From NCBI RefSeq assembly GCF_902150035.1, contig NZ_LR597505.1, positions 1 to 64,000 on the forward strand: a stretch of 64,000 nt of DNA, read 5' to 3'. Of this stretch, positions 49,175-54,930 are shown piece by piece. Within the stretch, counting starts at the first letter, position 1; every line of letters starts with the position of its first letter. The notes under the pieces were generated by a model. That model had not been told where the DNA came from. It saw only the letters and a program-made list of their open reading frames with translations, and searched no databases. The translations under genes and the position numbers were made by a program. Source of the stretch: Enorma burkinafasonensis (GTDB taxonomy: Bacteria; Actinomycetota; Coriobacteriia; Coriobacteriales; Coriobacteriaceae).

Positions 49175-51526
49175 CTACGCGATGGGTTTCAGGGTCTTGT
49201 TGCCCTCGCCCGGCATGAGGCGGCGCGCGTCGTAGACGCTCTCCACCCTGCCGATCGTCGCGAGCAGCGGGTCGAGGCCGCTCGCGTCGGAGATCTCGAC
49301 CAGGAAGCGCAGGATGGCCCCGCCCTCGCCGTCGGTCGAGGTGCTCGCCGAGAGGATGTTGCCGCCCGCGTCGCCGATCGCGATGGTCACGTCCTTGAGC
49401 AGGCCCATGCGGTCGAGGCACTCGACGACGATCTCGACCTGGAAGGTCGCGTCGGCGGCGTTGTCCCACTCGACGTCGATCATACGCTCGGCATGCTCCA
49501 TGAGGCCCTTCACGTTGGGGCAGTTCGCCCGGTGCACCGAGACGCCGCGGCCGCGCGTGATGAAGCCCACGATCTCGTCGCCCGCGACCGGGTTGCAGCA
49601 GTGGGCCAGGCGCACGAGCAGGCCGTCGCCCGACTGCCCCTTGACGATGACGCCCGAGTTGCGGCGCTGCCGGCGCTGCGGCTTGCGGTTCGAGCCGCGG
49701 GCGGGCTGCTGCGGGGCCTCAGCGGGCTGCGGGCGGGGCGCGTCGATCGGCTTGGGGTCGAGGATCTGCTCCACGCGGTTGCCCACCATGCGCGGCGGCA
49801 CCCTGCCCGAGCCGATCGCGGCGAACAGGTCCTCGATCGTGCGGTAGTTGAGCTGCTCGCACACGGTGCCGAGAGCGCGCGTGGACCGGGGCGTGGAGAT
49901 GCCGTACCCGCGCTTGCGCAGGTCCTTGGCCAGGATGTCGCGGCCCGCGGCGGCGTCCTCGTCCTTGGTCGCGGCTGAGAAGTAGCGCTTGATCTTGGAG
50001 CGCGCGGACGGCGTCTTCACGATGTTCAGCCAGTCGCGCGACGGCTTGGCGTTCTTGTTGGTGAGGATCTGCACCTGGTCGCCCGTGAGCAGCACGTGGG
50101 TGAGCGGCGCCACCGCGCCGTTGACCTTGGCGCCGATGCAGTGGTTGCCCACCTCGGTATGGACGGCGTAGGCGAAGTCGAGCGGCGTAGCGCCGGCGCG
50201 CAGGCTCATGACCTCGCCCTTGGGCGTGAAGACGAAGATCTCCTGATCGTAGAGGTCGACCTTGAGGGAGTGGAGGAACTCCTTGGGGTCGTCGATCTCG
50301 TCGGAGGCTGCCCAGTCGAGCGAGTGCTTGAGCATGTTGATCTGGTCGTCCAGGCGCTGGGCGTCCGTGGACTTGGTGGCGGTGGAGCCGCCGGACTTCT
50401 TGTACAGCCAGTGCGCGGCGATGCCGTACTCGGCCTGCTCGTGCATCTCGTACGTGCGGATCTGGATCTCGAGCGGGCGCGCCGTGGGGCCGATGACCGT
50501 CGTGTGGAGCGACTGGTAGTTGTTGGACTTGGGCATGGCGATGTAGTCCTTGAAGCGCCCCGGCATGGGGTGCCACAGCGAGTGGACCGCGCCGAGCGCC
50601 GAGTAGCAGTCGCCCACGGACCGGCAGATGACGCGGAGCGCCACCAGGTCGTAGATCTCGGAGAACTCCTTGCCCTTGCGCTTCATCTTCTGGTAGATGG
50701 ACCAGTAGTGCTTGGAGCGGCCGTTGACTTGGAAGCCCTCCATGCCCAGGTCGTGAAGCTCGTCGGTGAGCACGCGGATCGTCTCGGCGAGGAAGCGCTC
50801 GCGGACCTCGCGGCTCTCGGCGACCATGCGCGCGATGCGCTGGTACGCCTCGGGCTCGAGGTAGAAGAACGAGAGGTCCTCGAGTTCCCACTTGATGGAG
50901 CTCATGCCCAGGCGGTCGGCGAGCGGCGCGTAGACATCCATGGTCTCGCGGGCCTTGAACAGGCGCCGGTCCTCGCGCAGCGCCGCGAGCGTGCGCATGT
51001 TGTGCAGGCGGTCGGCGAGCTTGACGATGATGACGCGCATGTCCTTCGACATGGCGAGGAACATCTTGCGCAGGTTCAGCGCCTGCTTCTCGTCCATGTT
51101 GTCGACTTCGATGTTGGTGAGCTTCGTGACGCCGTCGACGAGCTCGGCGACCGTCTCGCCGAAGATCCCAGCCACGTCGGCGAGCGAGGTCTCGGTGTCC
51201 TCGACGGTGTCGTGCAGAAGGGCCGCGCACACCACGTCGCAGTCCATGTTGAGCTCCGCCAGGATGATGGCAACCTCGACCGGGTGGTTGATGTAGAGCT
51301 CGCCCGAGCGGCGCTTCTGGGCCGAGTGCTTCTCGGCGGCGAAGCAGTACGCGCGCTCGACCATGGCGCTGTCGGCGTCGCTCATGTACTTGCCGCACAG
51401 CTGCTGCAGGCGGTCGAAGTTGTCGGCGCAGATCTCGGGCGGGAGGTCGTCGGCAGAGGTGTAGTGCACCATCTGCGAGAACGAGGTGAGCGACGCGTCG
51501 TGCGCCGCGCGAGTTGCAGCATCCAT
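49175..51526 (-). CDS. rel: Bifunctional (p)ppGpp synthetase/hydrolase (RSH family)
   Basis: Makes and degrades the stringent-response alarmone. The 783-residue protein has the HD hydrolase domain (about 50-200: YINHPVEVAIIL, ALLHDTVEDT, LADRLHNMRTL), the synthetase domain (about 250-370: GRSKHYWSIYQKMKRKG, YDLVALRVI, MPKSNNYQSLHT), a TGS domain (FTPKGEVMSLRAGATPLDFAY), an Arg/Gln-rich linker, a zinc-finger-like LAHCCNPVAGD and a C-terminal ACT domain. Both catalytic domains look intact, so it is a Rel-type long enzyme. The gene begins 8 bp after recJ-recQ, so they are co-transcribed. Confidence 0.97.
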   Translation of the reverse strand: MDAATRAAHDASLTSFSQMVHYTSADDLPPEICADNFDRLQQLCGKYMSDADSAMVERAYCFAAEKHSAQKRRSGELYINHPVEVAIILAELNMDCDVVCAALLHDTVEDTETSLADVAGIFGETVAELVDGVTKLTNIEVDNMDEKQALNLRKMFLAMSKDMRVIIVKLADRLHNMRTLAALREDRRLFKARETMDVYAPLADRLGMSSIKWELEDLSFFYLEPEAYQRIARMVAESREVRERFLAETIRVLTDELHDLGMEGFQVNGRSKHYWSIYQKMKRKGKEFSEIYDLVALRVICRSVGDCYSALGAVHSLWHPMPGRFKDYIAMPKSNNYQSLHTTVIGPTARPLEIQIRTYEMHEQAEYGIAAHWLYKKSGGSTATKSTDAQRLDDQINMLKHSLDWAASDEIDDPKEFLHSLKVDLYDQEIFVFTPKGEVMSLRAGATPLDFAYAVHTEVGNHCIGAKVNGAVAPLTHVLLTGDQVQILTNKNAKPSRDWLNIVKTPSARSKIKRYFSAATKDEDAAAGRDILAKDLRKRGYGISTPRSTRALGTVCEQLNYRTIEDLFAAIGSGRVPPRMVGNRVEQILDPKPIDAPRPQPAEAPQQPARGSNRKPQRRQRRNSGVIVKGQSGDGLLVRLAHCCNPVAGDEIVGFITRGRGVSVHRANCPNVKGLMEHAERMIDVEWDNAADATFQVEIVVECLDRMGLLKDVTIAIGDAGGNILSASTSTDGEGGAILRFLVEISDASGLDPLLATIGRVESVYDARRLMPGEGNKTLKPIA

Positions 51527-51534
51527 CGAGATCC

Positions 51535-54500
51535 CTACCCTTCACGACCTTCCGCGAGCCGCCCCGGCCGCGGGACGATCGGACGGTTTACCTGTGCAAG
51601 CATATCACGAGCGGACGCGGTGAGCGCCCAGCTGCGGAACGACGTGAACGCCGAGCGCGTGCGCAGGCCCTCGAGGTACCTGATCGAGCGCGTGAGCGCC
51701 ATGTGCCCCGGCTGCTCGGCCATGCTGATGCGCCGGGTGCCCGAGCGGTCGCGCACCTCGGCGAAGCCGAGCTCCTCGAAGATCGCGATGCCGCTCGAGA
51801 CCGACCGCTCGTCCACCGGCGTGCGCGCGTCGATGGCGAGGCACATGTTCGCGATGTCCACATCGCTCGCCGGGAAGCTCTGCTCGCCGGTCTTGCCGCG
51901 GTGCGCGCGCCACATGGTCTGCAGCGCCCGGTAGAGCGTCACGAGCTCCTCGCGCTCGGGGGCGGCCGCATCGAGCATGCGCTCGTTGATGCGCGCGTCG
52001 CGCGTGGAGTAGAGCAGGTGTATGCACGCGGGCTCGCCGTCGCGGCCGGCGCGGCCGCTCATCTGGTTGAACTCGGTCGCCGAGAACGGCATGTGGTAGA
52101 GGACCACGTGCCTGATGTCGGGCAGGTTCACGCCCTCGCCGAACGCTGAGGTCGACACGATGCAGGTGAGCGCGCTCGCGCGGAAGGCCTCCTCGACGCG
52201 GGAGCGCTCCTCGCGCGAGAGCCCGGCGTGGTAGAAGGCGATGCGCCCGGCGAGCTCGGGCACGCGCTTGCGCAGGGTCCTGACGAGCGCCACCGACTGG
52301 TCGCGCGAGTTCACGTACACGACGCACTTCTCGCAGGTCGCCACGATCGACACGAGGCGCATCTCGCGCGCCGCGGAATCGCGGTCGTCCTCGAGCTCGA
52401 GGTTCTCGCGCACCGTGCCGTCGACGACCGTCCGCTCGATGCCGAGCAGCCGGCCGATCTCGTCGGCGCAGGCCGCGTCGGCCGTCGCCGTGACGGCGAG
52501 GACGGTCGGGTTCCTGAGGGCGCGGATCACCTCGGGCAGGTCGAGGTAGGCGGAGCGCTCGCCGGCGCGGGCGCGTGCGGCGTGGTGCGCCTCGTCGATG
52601 ACGAGGAAGCCCGTGCGCCCCGCGCCCACGAAGCGGACGCGGTGGATCGAGAGGAACTCCGGCGTGGTGAGCACGATGTCGAGCTTGCCGGCGGCATAGG
52701 CCGAGAAGGCCCGCTCGCGGGCGGCGTCGACCGTCTCGCCAGTGAGCACGGCCGCCCGGATCCCCAGGCGCGCGCACGACGAGACGAGGTGGAACGCCTG
52801 GTCCGCCACGAGCGCGCGCAGCGGGTAGACGAGGATGCTCCCCCGATGGCGCGCGATGGCCTCGCGCGCGGCGTGCACCTGGAAGATAAGCGACTTGCCG
52901 CGCCCGGTCCCCATGACCGCGAGCGTGCTCTCGCCCGCCGCGAGCGCGTCGAGCGCCTCGCGCTGGGCGGGATGCGGGGAGGCCTGGCCTATGAACTCAT
53001 GGAGCAGGGTGCGGGTGAGCTCGTCGTAGGAGAGCGTCTCGAGGAGCGCGCGACGGCGTGCCGCGGCATCGGGGCCGTCTGCAGCCGACGGCGGGAGCGG
53101 GGCGTCCTCGAGCACGGGGTCGCCGCCGTCGGCGCCAAGCGGGGCGCCGTCGGATTCGGCGAAGGCGTCGCGGTCGGACGCCGCCCCGTCGTCCCCGGGG
53201 TCCGTCGGGGCGCCGTCGCCGGCGGTACGGCAGAGGATGTCCCTCACCATGAGCTTGGGCTTGACGCGGCCCTGCCAGTGCTCGGCGACCGCCTCGAACA
53301 CGAGGTCGACCACCGAGTCGCACGCGCAGAGCGCATCGACGTCGGGGGCGCGGAACATGATGGCCGCCACGCTCGCCACCCCGTCCGTCGCCGTGAAGCG
53401 CATGTGGTCGCCGGTCTTGCCCACGCAGAACCGGTCGGTCATCGAAACGCCCGTCGCCGCGAGCAGGGGCACCTTGTTCCCCTGGCCGAAGGGCTCGAGC
53501 AGCGAGATCTTCTCGATGGTCTCGACATCGAGCTCGGAGAGCCTCACCGTCGCGGCGACCTCGCCGGTGTCCTCGAACGCCTCCTCGGGAAGCTCCGAGA
53601 GCACCGCGTCGAGCCGCGAGCGCAGCTCGTCGAGGCGGTCGGCGGGCAACGTGACGCCCACGGCGTCCGCGTGCCCGCCGAAGCGCGTGAGCAGATCCGA
53701 GCAGCGCTCGACGGCATCGAACAGGTTGACGGCGCCCACCGAGCGCCCCGAGCCGCGCGCGACACCGTCCTCGATCGAGAAGAGGAGCGCCGGCACGTGG
53801 TAGCGGTTGACGAGCCTGCTCGCGACGATGCCCTTCACGCCCTCGTGCCAGCCCTCGCCGCCCACCACGATCACGCGGCCGCCGGTATAGGTCTCCTCCA
53901 CGCGGCGGGCGGCGTCCTCGGTGAGAGCCGCCTCGATGTCGCGCCGCTCCTGGTTGATGGCCTCGAGCTCGGAGGCGAGCCGTCCCGCCTCGATGGGGTC
54001 GCGCTCGAGCAGGAGGTCGAGCGCCAGGGTGGGGTCGGCCATGCGGCCCGCGGCGTTGAGGCGCGGGATGAGCGAGAACGAGAGCGCATCGGCCGTGATG
54101 GTCGCGAGGTCGGTGCGGGTGAGCGCCGCGAGCGCGATGAAGCCGGGCCGCTCGGTCGCGCGCATCTGCGCGATGCCCTCGGCCACGAGCGCCCGGTTCT
54201 CGGGCGTGAGCAGCATCATGTCGGACACGGTGCCGAGCGCCGCCACCTCGAGGTAGCGCCGCCACAGGTCCGGAGCGCCCAGCGCGGCGCCGAGCGCCTG
54301 CACGAGCTTGAGCGCCACGCCCGCGCCCGCGAGCTCGTGCGAGGGGCCGTCGGCGACGAGCTTGGGGTCGGTCAAGGGAATGCCCTCGGGGACCATGTCC
54401 GCCGGCTCGTGATGGTCGGTCACCACCAGGTCGACCCCGCGCTCGCGCAGATGCGCCACCTCGTCGCGGGCCGCGATGCCGTTGTCCACGGTCACCACGA

Positions 54501-54930
54501 GCGACGGGTCGCACTCCGCCGTCACGCGGTCGAGCGCCGCCGCGGAGAGGCCGTAGCCCTCATCGAAACGGTGCGGGATGATGGGATGGACCGAGGCCCC
54601 GAGCTCCCGGAGCGCCTCGGTGAGCAGGCAGGTCGAGGTGATGCCGTCCACGTCGAAATCGCCGAACACCGCAATGCGCTCGCCGTCGCGCACGGCCCGC
54701 GCCACGCGCTCGACCACCTGGGGCATGCCCGGGATGGCGAGCGGGTCCGCCCAGTCGCGCTCGAGCGAGGGGGTGAGGAAGGCGCGCCCCTCCTCCACCG
54801 AGGAGATGCCGTGCGCGACCATGATGCGCGCCACAAGCGAGGGCACGCCGAGCCCCACGGCGAGGTCGTCGGCGAGACGGGGGTTCTCGGGCGCCACAGC
54901 CCAACGGTGACTCGTCCTAAGCGATGCCAT
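51535..54930 (-). CDS. RecJ-RecQ fusion: single-strand exonuclease plus helicase
   Basis: An 1131-residue protein made of two recombination enzymes. Residues 1 to about 560 are RecJ: VFGDFDVDGITS (about 90), TVDNG, VVTDHHEP (about 172), PRLNAAGRM and GGHADAVG. After an acidic Asp/Gly/Ala linker (about 565-610) comes a RecQ-like superfamily 2 helicase: HPAQREALDALA, Walker A MGTGRGKSL (about 673), IDEAHH (about 778), VTATAD and QMSGRAGRDGE. RecJ normally digests ssDNA 5' to 3' after RecQ unwinds it in RecF repair, so the fusion joins two steps in one chain. The frame is continuous. A Cys-rich RecQ zinc domain is not obvious. Confidence 0.9.
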   Translation of the reverse strand: MASLRTSHRWAVAPENPRLADDLAVGLGVPSLVARIMVAHGISSVEEGRAFLTPSLERDWADPLAIPGMPQVVERVARAVRDGERIAVFGDFDVDGITSTCLLTEALRELGASVHPIIPHRFDEGYGLSAAALDRVTAECDPSLVVTVDNGIAARDEVAHLRERGVDLVVTDHHEPADMVPEGIPLTDPKLVADGPSHELAGAGVALKLVQALGAALGAPDLWRRYLEVAALGTVSDMMLLTPENRALVAEGIAQMRATERPGFIALAALTRTDLATITADALSFSLIPRLNAAGRMADPTLALDLLLERDPIEAGRLASELEAINQERRDIEAALTEDAARRVEETYTGGRVIVVGGEGWHEGVKGIVASRLVNRYHVPALLFSIEDGVARGSGRSVGAVNLFDAVERCSDLLTRFGGHADAVGVTLPADRLDELRSRLDAVLSELPEEAFEDTGEVAATVRLSELDVETIEKISLLEPFGQGNKVPLLAATGVSMTDRFCVGKTGDHMRFTATDGVASVAAIMFRAPDVDALCACDSVVDLVFEAVAEHWQGRVKPKLMVRDILCRTAGDGAPTDPGDDGAASDRDAFAESDGAPLGADGGDPVLEDAPLPPSAADGPDAAARRRALLETLSYDELTRTLLHEFIGQASPHPAQREALDALAAGESTLAVMGTGRGKSLIFQVHAAREAIARHRGSILVYPLRALVADQAFHLVSSCARLGIRAAVLTGETVDAARERAFSAYAAGKLDIVLTTPEFLSIHRVRFVGAGRTGFLVIDEAHHAARARAGERSAYLDLPEVIRALRNPTVLAVTATADAACADEIGRLLGIERTVVDGTVRENLELEDDRDSAAREMRLVSIVATCEKCVVYVNSRDQSVALVRTLRKRVPELAGRIAFYHAGLSREERSRVEEAFRASALTCIVSTSAFGEGVNLPDIRHVVLYHMPFSATEFNQMSGRAGRDGEPACIHLLYSTRDARINERMLDAAAPEREELVTLYRALQTMWRAHRGKTGEQSFPASDVDIANMCLAIDARTPVDERSVSSGIAIFEELGFAEVRDRSGTRRISMAEQPGHMALTRSIRYLEGLRTRSAFTSFRSWALTASARDMLAQVNRPIVPRPGRLAEGREG

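Follow-up and report, generated by a model that had tools for sequence, protein, structure and literature searches.

RecQ and RecJ are described as cooperating in resection (excerpts of PMC4846377 and PMC11442139), and the coordination of RecJ with RecQ and SSB is called unclear in the excerpt of PMC11442139. In E. coli and D. radiodurans these are separate proteins, and in two Bacteroidota we found recJ and recQ back to back; by inference, such pairs supply the same two activities as the protein analysed here, as two proteins instead of one chain. A nuclease and a helicase do share one chain in DinG of Bacillota, which combines a 3'-5' exonuclease with an SF2 helicase that runs 5'-3' according to the excerpted PMC12345164; these polarities are the reverse of those expected for our protein, and the nuclease family differs as well. 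RecJ of D. radiodurans carries a different C-terminal domain, which binds SSB (PMC4846377, excerpt), while the C-terminal domain of S. aureus RecJ is termed nonconserved and its predicted structure lacks an SSB pocket of the D. radiodurans type (PMC11442139, excerpt). Among the matches listed for open-licence PMC articles, we recognised neither a RecJ-helicase fusion nor an explanation of PF10141 (ssDNA-exonuc_C), the C-terminal family of Bacillota RecJ.

The stretch of DNA analysed here, hereafter the window, comprises 64,000 nucleotides and encodes a protein in which a RecJ is followed by a helicase:

51535..54930, minus strand: open reading frame of the RecJ-helicase fusion (P0001), 1131 aa, ATG start, without internal stop
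54229..54678, minus strand: DHH domain, fusion residues 85-234 (Pfam PF01368)
53596..53880, minus strand: DHHA1 domain, fusion residues 351-445 (Pfam PF02272)
53239..53553, minus strand: RecJ_OB domain, fusion residues 460-564 (Pfam PF17768)
53035..53235, minus strand: acidic, Ala-rich linker, fusion residues 566-632 (67 residues)
52474..52971, minus strand: helicase lobe 1 (RecA1, DEAD), fusion residues 654-819 (Pfam PF00270)
52891..52911, minus strand: Walker A / motif I GTGRGKS, fusion residues 674-680
52582..52596, minus strand: motif II DEAHH, fusion residues 779-783
52036..52341, minus strand: helicase lobe 2 (RecA2, Helicase_C), fusion residues 864-965 (Pfam PF00271)
51559..51960, minus strand: winged-helix-like C-terminal tail, fusion residues 991-1124
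49175..51526, minus strand: putative relA/spoT-type gene, named from a reading of the sequence, 8 bp directly downstream of the fusion

In order, the chain thus consists of a full RecJ (DHH, DHHA1, OB), an SF2 helicase core that is complete, and a tail resembling a winged helix, and each of the five domains DHH, DHHA1, RecJ_OB, DEAD and Helicase_C scores above its Pfam cut-off. An earlier note had read this gene as a RecJ fused to a complete helicase core, which the Pfam domains and the single 1131-aa frame prove right. The motifs it quoted are found at residues 673-681 (MGTGRGKSL), 779-783 (DEAHH) and from 958 onwards (SGRAGRDGE), with motif VI, QMSGRAGRDG, forming the end of lobe 2. Its acidic linker also holds, with 15 D/E against 5 K/R in residues 566-632, and where it had allowed for helicase motifs going missing on alignment, motifs I-VI are all present. 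An assembly chimera or a pseudogene can be ruled out, because the same part order recurs in other genomes, with conserved motifs.

The N-terminal half is a full RecJ. With 472.7 bits, the fusion exceeds the cut-off of NCBIfam recJ TIGR00644 (396.9), which together with the Pfam domains bears out the DHH-type RecJ motifs seen earlier. In 26 aligned sequences, residues D91, D93, D95, D149, D172-H173-H174 and D237 of the DHH domain as well as GGH 418-420 of DHHA1 are invariant, and the RecJ metal and active-site residues are conserved across DHH, DHHA1 and OB. The fusion thus keeps the three domains and the catalytic residues of RecJ as defined by TIGR00644 and by the proteins from D. radiodurans (5f54) and S. 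aureus (8y30). By analogy to these enzymes, this half would act as a 5'-3' ssDNA exonuclease. Among solved structures, the fusion profile likewise matches RecJs best; none of the RecJs among the matches listed aligns over the helicase region.

The C-terminal half shares with RecQ (TIGR00614/TIGR01389; 4q48, 1oyw) the SF2 core, motifs I-VI and the best solved matches in sequence and fold. The best solved match of the helicase model is RecQ of D. radiodurans (Z 25.1); three of the eight rows in the underlying alignment are RecQs from Bacteroidota or viral contigs, so that the RecQ-type fold of the model is not independent of RecQs. 8y30 is absent among the best 50 rows for this model, which is uninformative either way.

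Unlike RecQ, the fusion remains below the family cut-offs, with 178.4 bits against 219.8 (TIGR00614) and 192.6 against 640.2 (TIGR01389). Canonical RecQs contain the stretch DEAHCxSxWGxDFRP, which we take to be what is called the aromatic-rich loop. It is present in 12/12 canonical RecQ ORFs, which were chosen by the pattern DEAHC[IVLA]S (14 loci were taken; L394 had no such ORF and L398 was left out), and absent in 50/50 fusions from the class (Coriobacteriia), where a loop with conserved R and Y follows DEAHH in its place. Zinc-binding/RQC and HRDC domains gave no Pfam match in the whole fusion (E 0.001) or in its three C-terminal pieces (E 10), and the fusion tail does not match RecQ (score 17.4). 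In the helicase tree, a branch with SH-aLRT 100 separates 29 fusion-type helicases from 12 RecQs. The "RecQ-like" of the earlier note therefore stands for the fold, and an identity as RecQ fails by cut-offs, loop, accessory domains and tree; the motor is RecQ-like yet no RecQ. At least 25 loci on viral contigs encode relatives of the helicase half, none of them close (22-32% identity in the best segments). The lack of RecQ's aromatic-rich loop and accessory domains is counted against a helicase-nuclease reading.

By analogy to separate RecQ and RecJ, we propose the following polarity, unwinding, coupling and substrate for the fusion. At an end, gap or fork, the RecQ-like motor (both SF2 lobes with the winged-helix tail) would bind the strand ending in 3' and move 3' to 5'. 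The 5'-ended strand displaced in this way would pass to RecJ within the same chain, to be digested 5' to 3', with 3' single-stranded DNA left for RecA loading. We give this single-chain helicase-nuclease, together with an old RecJ-HIRAN-helicase chain as the wider evolutionary explanation, a probability of roughly 0.7.

The same missing loop and accessory domains would fit a motor that works as a translocase or remodeller, stripping SSB or RecA or reversing forks while RecJ trims 5' ends, as would relatives that carry HIRAN, a domain of the fork-remodelling HLTF (PMC4666394, excerpt). The complete motifs I to VI and the RecQ-family helicases as best solved fold matches speak against such a remodeller, which we consider unlikely. 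HIRAN (PF08797) itself is absent from the window fusion, both in the whole protein (E 0.001) and in residues 560-1131 (E 10). Fusions beyond the class often have it in place of the acidic linker, and it occurs at the linker position in some relatives from other orders of the class, family f27 and Bacillota. Pfam places it between RecJ and helicase in L309, L073, L317, L053, L055, L058 and L059, and also finds it in the free-standing helicase L362.

The genome offers alternatives to the proposed helicase-nuclease. Of the separate genes that the earlier note suggested looking for, a canonical recQ is present on contig C19 (419.8 bits); on the DHH side there are two shorter frames, one of 340 aa and one of 460 aa. 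The genome also encodes RecO and AddAB-like proteins, and the fusion therefore need not be the only resection route. Given the separate RecQ and the AddAB-like proteins, the fused motor may even serve a different task.

How widely the fusion occurs was surveyed within and beyond the class, as the earlier note had suggested. A fusion-type frame, defined as at least 1096 aa with a sub-cut-off RecQ-family match, is found in 89/99 class genomes, and fusions occur well beyond the class. Among 198 genomes of the phylum, full-length fusions are encoded by 16 of the 17 class members and by 4 of the 181 others; all four belong to family f27, a count of carriers found and not a share of f27 genomes. A Bacillota phylum contributes 18/199 genomes with full-length fusions, one of these cut at a contig end. 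TGRGKS and DEAHH are conserved in 50/50 class ORFs including that of the window, which were chosen from genomes with a match in a long frame and are no frequency sample, and both halves show little or no variation at their catalytic residues (alignments of n=50 and n=26). No RecQ-family match above cut-off is present in 38 of the 89 class genomes with a fusion-type frame, and the fused motor is therefore the sole RecQ-like one found there.

This distribution bears on a simpler view, in which the halves are fused for co-expression only, without mechanical coupling. The long, acidic linker of the window fusion would agree with it, as would the Bacillota genome G495, where a RecJ with a decayed helicase is accompanied by an intact free-standing copy. 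Against it stand the fusion-type frames in 89/99 class genomes with full-length fusions in two phyla, and the 38/89 class genomes in which no RecQ-like motor other than the fused one was found, and we regard mere co-expression as very unlikely. A second free-standing helicase, in G061, was considered as a case of gene fission and dropped, since both pieces lie at contig ends. The recJ-relA neighbourhood seen in the window occurs with intact and decayed fusions alike, and relA adjoins recJ in many relatives; none was seen in the short flanks of the four f27 fusion loci.

Decayed relatives of the helicase were found in other RecJs. HMM modules reveal several stages in Bacillota: both lobes with their motifs erased, lobe 2 plus tail, and tail only. 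Motif erasure was traced residue by residue, and the winged-helix tail is the part retained longest. The second RecJ of Halonatronum saccharophilum, which lacks lobe 1 and motifs V and VI, is a bridging case whose tail matches the fusion profile with E 3.3e-41. Of the RecJ ORFs in a named sample, 11/14 that carry a long extension give a match (E<0.05), against 0/101 that lack one (incomplete ORFs included).

PF10141 aligns weakly, and in collinear order, with lobe 2 and tail of the fusion. Three pieces of the window fusion reach 11.4-14.5 bits, below the cut-off of 26.4; an intact relative (L058) again matches weakly and collinearly (E 0.0038), and the decayed L369 has a match to PF10141 (7.3e-5) and a weak one to Helicase_C (0.018), arranged in order. 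The aligned Bacilli RecJ tails differ from the fusion in lacking helicase motifs and lobe 1. We compared four sets of RecJ tails with lobe 2 plus tail of the fusion by hhalign and obtained scores of 67.8 for Bacilli (96.3%), 94.1 for other Actinomycetota, and 126.2 and 337.0 for two other Bacillota sets. Reversed or column-shuffled controls reached 8 to 20 (11-18 in ten shuffled and one reversed control for Bacilli). In a comparison with 12 canonical RecQs, scores were 14.0-15.2 for three sets and 116.5 for the fourth.

For Bacilli, most of this signal comes from the winged helix, which alone scores 57.4 (probability 95.8%). Lobe 2 alone is weak (22.3, 3.3%); the joint alignment extends over it. 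Taken alone, it is also weak in the other Actinomycetota (33.6, 39.1%) and in the Bacillota tails that are short (25.5, 8.3%). Directly compared, Bacilli and other Actinomycetota tails score 36.4 (46.9%), and Bacilli tails score 90.5 against the decayed Bacillota set. Single Bacilli tails match weakly (L214, E 0.017; L301, 0.057; L216, 0.31) or gave no hit (L078, L082). In Foldseek, the Bacillus-type tail model has 8y30 as its sole match passing E 0.001, followed by helicase matches at E 3.2e-3; the model resembles helicase lobes at Z 6-8 (8.1 or less). A profile of tails without Bacilli (A6; 27 rows, six of them intact fusions) has lobe 2 of RecQ as its top-ranked solved structure, with 8y30 not among the best 60 of 324 matches, which supports the lobe-2 identity of that set and does not reach Bacilli. 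By profile comparison, the Bacilli tails appear to share ancestry with the winged-helix tail of the fusion, which carries most of their tie to the fused helicase. The RecJ tail of many other bacteria, probably also that of Bacillus, seems to be what is left of a worn-down fused motor.

Trees were used to place these remains. RecJ-core trees reject the grouping of all intact fusions in one clade (p-AU 8.5e-6), and repeated loss is therefore the simplest reading. It competes with several independent origins of intact fusions, in which other RecJ tails are unrelated or have only the winged helix in common. Such origins would account for the scatter of intact fusions on the RecJ tree (7 changes; 112 rows, a quick tree in which 38/109 inner branches are open), for a lobe 2 that alone is not significant in Bacilli and some others, and for the weakest tails lacking single matches. 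They are hard to reconcile with the grouping of 29/29 fused-type helicases apart from 12 RecQs (support 100), with tails that match the fused clade and, in 3/4 sets, not RecQ, with the graded intermediates, and with 12/25 splits common to RecJ and helicase trees (no more than 2 in any of 200 label shuffles). We therefore hold independent origins to be improbable. An ancestral one-chain RecJ-HIRAN-helicase resection motor, old in Bacillota and Actinomycetota, is the likely alternative: it would have stayed whole in the class, f27 and scattered Bacillota, and the motor would have been lost many times, as motifs eroded, as lobe 1 disappeared or, in two species of a single genus, as the entire helicase was cleanly lost.

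A natural single-chain version of RecQ-like motor and RecJ would be a 1:1 enzyme of defined composition, and inactivating one half or the other would put coupling to the test. From the decay series, the unexplained RecJ C-terminal domain of Bacillus and its relatives would gain an origin and also a role that can be tested: it would be a remnant of the motor, retained as a scaffold, a DNA-binding winged helix or a docking site. An ATP-driven motor would thus have turned repeatedly into a passive domain, with the intermediates still readable.

The RecJ-helicase fusion and its downstream neighbour are encoded as follows:

51535-54930, minus strand: RecJ-helicase fusion ORF, 1131 aa; it begins with ATG and is free of internal stops
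Downstream of the fusion, 8 bp from its stop: relA/spoT-type gene

The Pfam matches of the fusion protein fall into two blocks, DHH, DHHA1 and RecJ_OB within residues 85-564 followed by DEAD and Helicase_C within residues 654-965. NCBIfam assigns the first half to recJ above cut-off and gives the second half sub-threshold scores for RecQ models. RecQ ranked first when the second half was compared with solved structures by phmmer (E 1.1e-34), and the alignments span motifs I to VI. Based on the domains in both halves and the aligned motifs, RecJ is indeed fused to a complete helicase core, as the earlier note had proposed. When the helicase half was modelled (mean pLDDT 67.0; built from 8 rows, three of them RecQs), the predicted fold resembled RecQ-family structures most, with D. 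radiodurans RecQ at Z 25.1, rmsd 4.0 and 358 aligned residues. However, DEAHCxSxWGxDFRP is common to the 12 canonical RecQs read, whereas the fusions carry DEAHH followed by a different loop. Pfam found none of the zinc/RQC and HRDC domains of RecQ in the window protein. In the helicase tree, where L369, L347 and L364 are very long-branched rows, a branch with a support of 100 separates 29 fusion-type rows from 12 RecQs. The description of this half as RecQ-like holds for its fold and its best matches, but its RecQ model scores, its loop, the missing accessory domains and its position in the tree show that the fused motor is not a RecQ.

To describe conservation within the class, we read 50 ORFs, one per genome and including the window protein; 30 came from the top of the match list and 20 were chosen for diversity, with a match in a long frame required. 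TGRGKS and DEAHH are present in all 50. Both in this alignment and in one of 26 sequences, the RecJ motifs FGDxDxDG, DHH and GGH and the helicase motifs TGRGKS, DEAHH, TAT, TSAFGEG and GRxGR show no or hardly any variation. Because the catalytic motifs of both halves are conserved to this degree, both look selected for activity. By analogy to RecQ plus RecJ (PMC4846377, PMC11442139), the fused motor would track 3′ to 5′ and hand the displaced 5′ strand to the RecJ half. It might act by unwinding, by translocation only or in an SSB-dependent manner.

Besides the fusion, two further and shorter frames of the genome (340 and 460 aa) match DHH, making three matches in all. A search for a separate recQ, suggested in the earlier note, returned one canonical RecQ above cut-off. 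RecO is also encoded, and two PDDEXK_1 matches on one contig (frames of 1030 and 1251 aa, two stops lying inside the second match) are read as putative AddB and AddA. The suggested survey of the class was run on 99 genomes, taking a sub-cut-off RecQ-family match within a frame of at least 1096 aa as a fusion. Among the matches listed, 89 genomes carry such a frame, 54 of the 99 have a RecQ-family match above cut-off, and 38 of the 89 fusion-type genomes have none above cut-off. As for the remaining ten, a RecQ-family match at E 1e-40 is absent from G007, G011, G032, G041 and G091, short frames hold the match in G025, G061 and G092, and G013 and G087 show no fusion-type row among the matches listed. 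Above-cut-off RecQ-family helicases also occur at G010:C2:2097-3245 and G013:C7:8034-9182, in frames of 1173 and 1195 aa that are distinct from the RecJ fusion.

A scan of 198 genomes from the phylum gave full-length matches for 16 of the 17 class members; outside the class 4 of 181 genomes have one, all four from family f27. The f27 figure covers positive genomes, as the listing leaves out 57 genomes without a match. Full-length matches are also found in 18 of 199 genomes of the Bacillota phylum, sampled around L239 (from a MAG titled Bacillota bacterium), one match being truncated by a contig end. GTGRGKS is present in 10 of the 11 Bacillota fusions read from these 18; L364, a long-branched Bacillota fusion, has a different TGxGKS, and one of the four f27 proteins (L070) has GTSRGKS. 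Pfam detects a HIRAN domain that separates RecJ from the helicase in L309 and L317 of Bacillota, in L073 of f27 and in L053, L055, L058 and L059 from other orders of the class, and finds none in the window protein or in L028 and L044 of its order. The acidic linker of the window protein thus occupies the place held by HIRAN in these relatives, and most simply HIRAN was lost in its lineage.

A relA gene adjoins recJ at 49 of the 50 class loci; elsewhere in the phylum the figure is 13 of 20, with 0 of 4 for f27. In Bacillota, 10 of 10 fusion loci show this arrangement, as do 24 of the 39 remaining RecJ loci retrieved from that phylum. Of 120 named loci 14 have it, and all but one of the 14 are Bacillota. 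Absence of relA means little, since flank lengths differ between loci. Within genus g32, G003 and G005 retain the fusion, and in G007 and G091 RecJ ends right beside relA and the helicase is absent there; the respective RecJ frames (L401 and L402) measure 571 and 584 aa. In a Tannerella MAG (L195:145-3816) and a Bacteroidales MAG (L278:1894-5531), recJ directly adjoins a RecQ gene on the same strand, the two being separated by a few bases or overlapping slightly, an operon-level counterpart of the fusion. The fusion itself is real and old, and is built of known parts.

Separate models for each helicase lobe and for the tail, built from 40 fusions and run on 236 ORFs including the sequences used for model building, revealed a series of decayed forms. 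Both lobes are degraded in six RecJs (L363, L347, L348, L368, L369 and L371); L363 reads TAVVDIS at the position of GTGRGKS in the intact form. Others have lost lobe 1 and retain lobe 2 and the tail, e.g. L319 (3e-48), L354 (4e-40) and L349 (2e-35), or retain mainly the tail, e.g. L242 and L254. L319, the second RecJ of Halonatronum saccharophilum, has motifs V and VI erased when set beside the intact L309, and Pfam still detects Helicase_C in it. The two RecJ genes of this organism (G331), L207 and L319, have differently decayed tails. In L369, PF10141, the C-terminal domain of Bacillota RecJ, (7.3e-5) and a weak Helicase_C match (0.018, below cut-off) occur in order; a set of 27 tails, which includes six from intact fusions, yields Helicase_C in 13 and PF10141 in 7 at E 0.01. 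G495 combines the decayed fused helicase of L363 with a free-standing intact HIRAN-helicase (L362), its sister in the helicase tree (support 96), and here the motor seems to have been retained elsewhere during decay of the fused copy. The 873-aa RecJ frame of an Akkermansia MAG (L246) has its extra length before motif I, with 484 residues after it, unlike other long RecJs.

On an unrooted tree of 112 RecJ cores (38 of 109 inner branches unresolved), the intact state has to change 7 times, and well-supported branches force at least 3 of these changes; for the two-lobe-decayed state 6 changes are needed, of which at least 4 are forced. A single clade of intact fusions was rejected on a 54-row subset (p-AU 8.5e-6). 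In these trees relics were assigned liberally, by lobe 2 plus tail at E<1e-6 or tail at E<0.1 with a length >640. RecJ and helicase trees have 12 of 25 splits in common, whereas 200 shuffles never gave more than 2, and shared taxonomy contributes to this agreement. Most simply, the motor was lost repeatedly and some genes were transferred, because rebuilding a whole motor from a decayed one is unlikely.

Tails of RecJs were then compared with the fusion by hhalign.

Hhalign values of RecJ tail sets against parts of the fusion (set; rows; lobe 2 + tail; lobe 2 alone; winged helix)
Bacilli; 5; 67.8; 22.3; 57.4
Other Actinomycetota; 13; 94.1; 33.6; 65.1
Short Bacillota; 10; 126.2; 25.5; 107.0
Decayed Bacillota and kin; 17; 337.0; 192.2; –

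Reversed and 10-fold column-shuffled controls gave 8 to 20. Lobe 2 alone is clear only in the decayed Bacillota set and weak in the other three, in which the winged helix carries the signal. Against a RecQ profile, these three reach 14.0-15.2 and the decayed set 116.5. The Bacilli tails score 90.5 with the decayed set and only 36.4 with those of other Actinomycetota. In the named sample, 14 RecJ ORFs have a long extension, and 11 of them match at E<0.05 (7 even at 1e-3), compared to 0 of 101 without one, incomplete ORFs included. Single tails are frequently weak (L214 0.017, L216 0.31, L301 0.057), and L078 and L082 gave no match to the fusion models in the run on 236 ORFs.

For a model of the Metabacillus tail (12 sequences, mean pLDDT 74.6), the top match and the sole Foldseek match below E 0.001 is the C-terminal domain of S. 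aureus RecJ 8y30 (7.5e-13; Z 14.3, rmsd 12.5, 184 aligned), followed by the helicase Hel308 (3.2e-3). By Z, the rows after 8y30 are mostly helicase-type ATPase lobes, including Chd1 (Z 8.1, rmsd 21.9, 151 aligned), ISWI (Z 8.0, rmsd 4.3, 101 aligned) and RecQ 1oyy (Z 7.1, rmsd 12.9, 174 aligned), along with some winged-helix proteins. These middling values from a predicted structure only agree with a helicase origin of the tail. We did not find this reading of the RecJ C-terminal domain in the literature searched. Taken together, there is a strong case that this domain is a fossil helicase in the decayed Bacillota forms, and a good one, based mainly on the winged helix and the intermediates, that the tails of Bacillus-type RecJs are fossil helicases as well.
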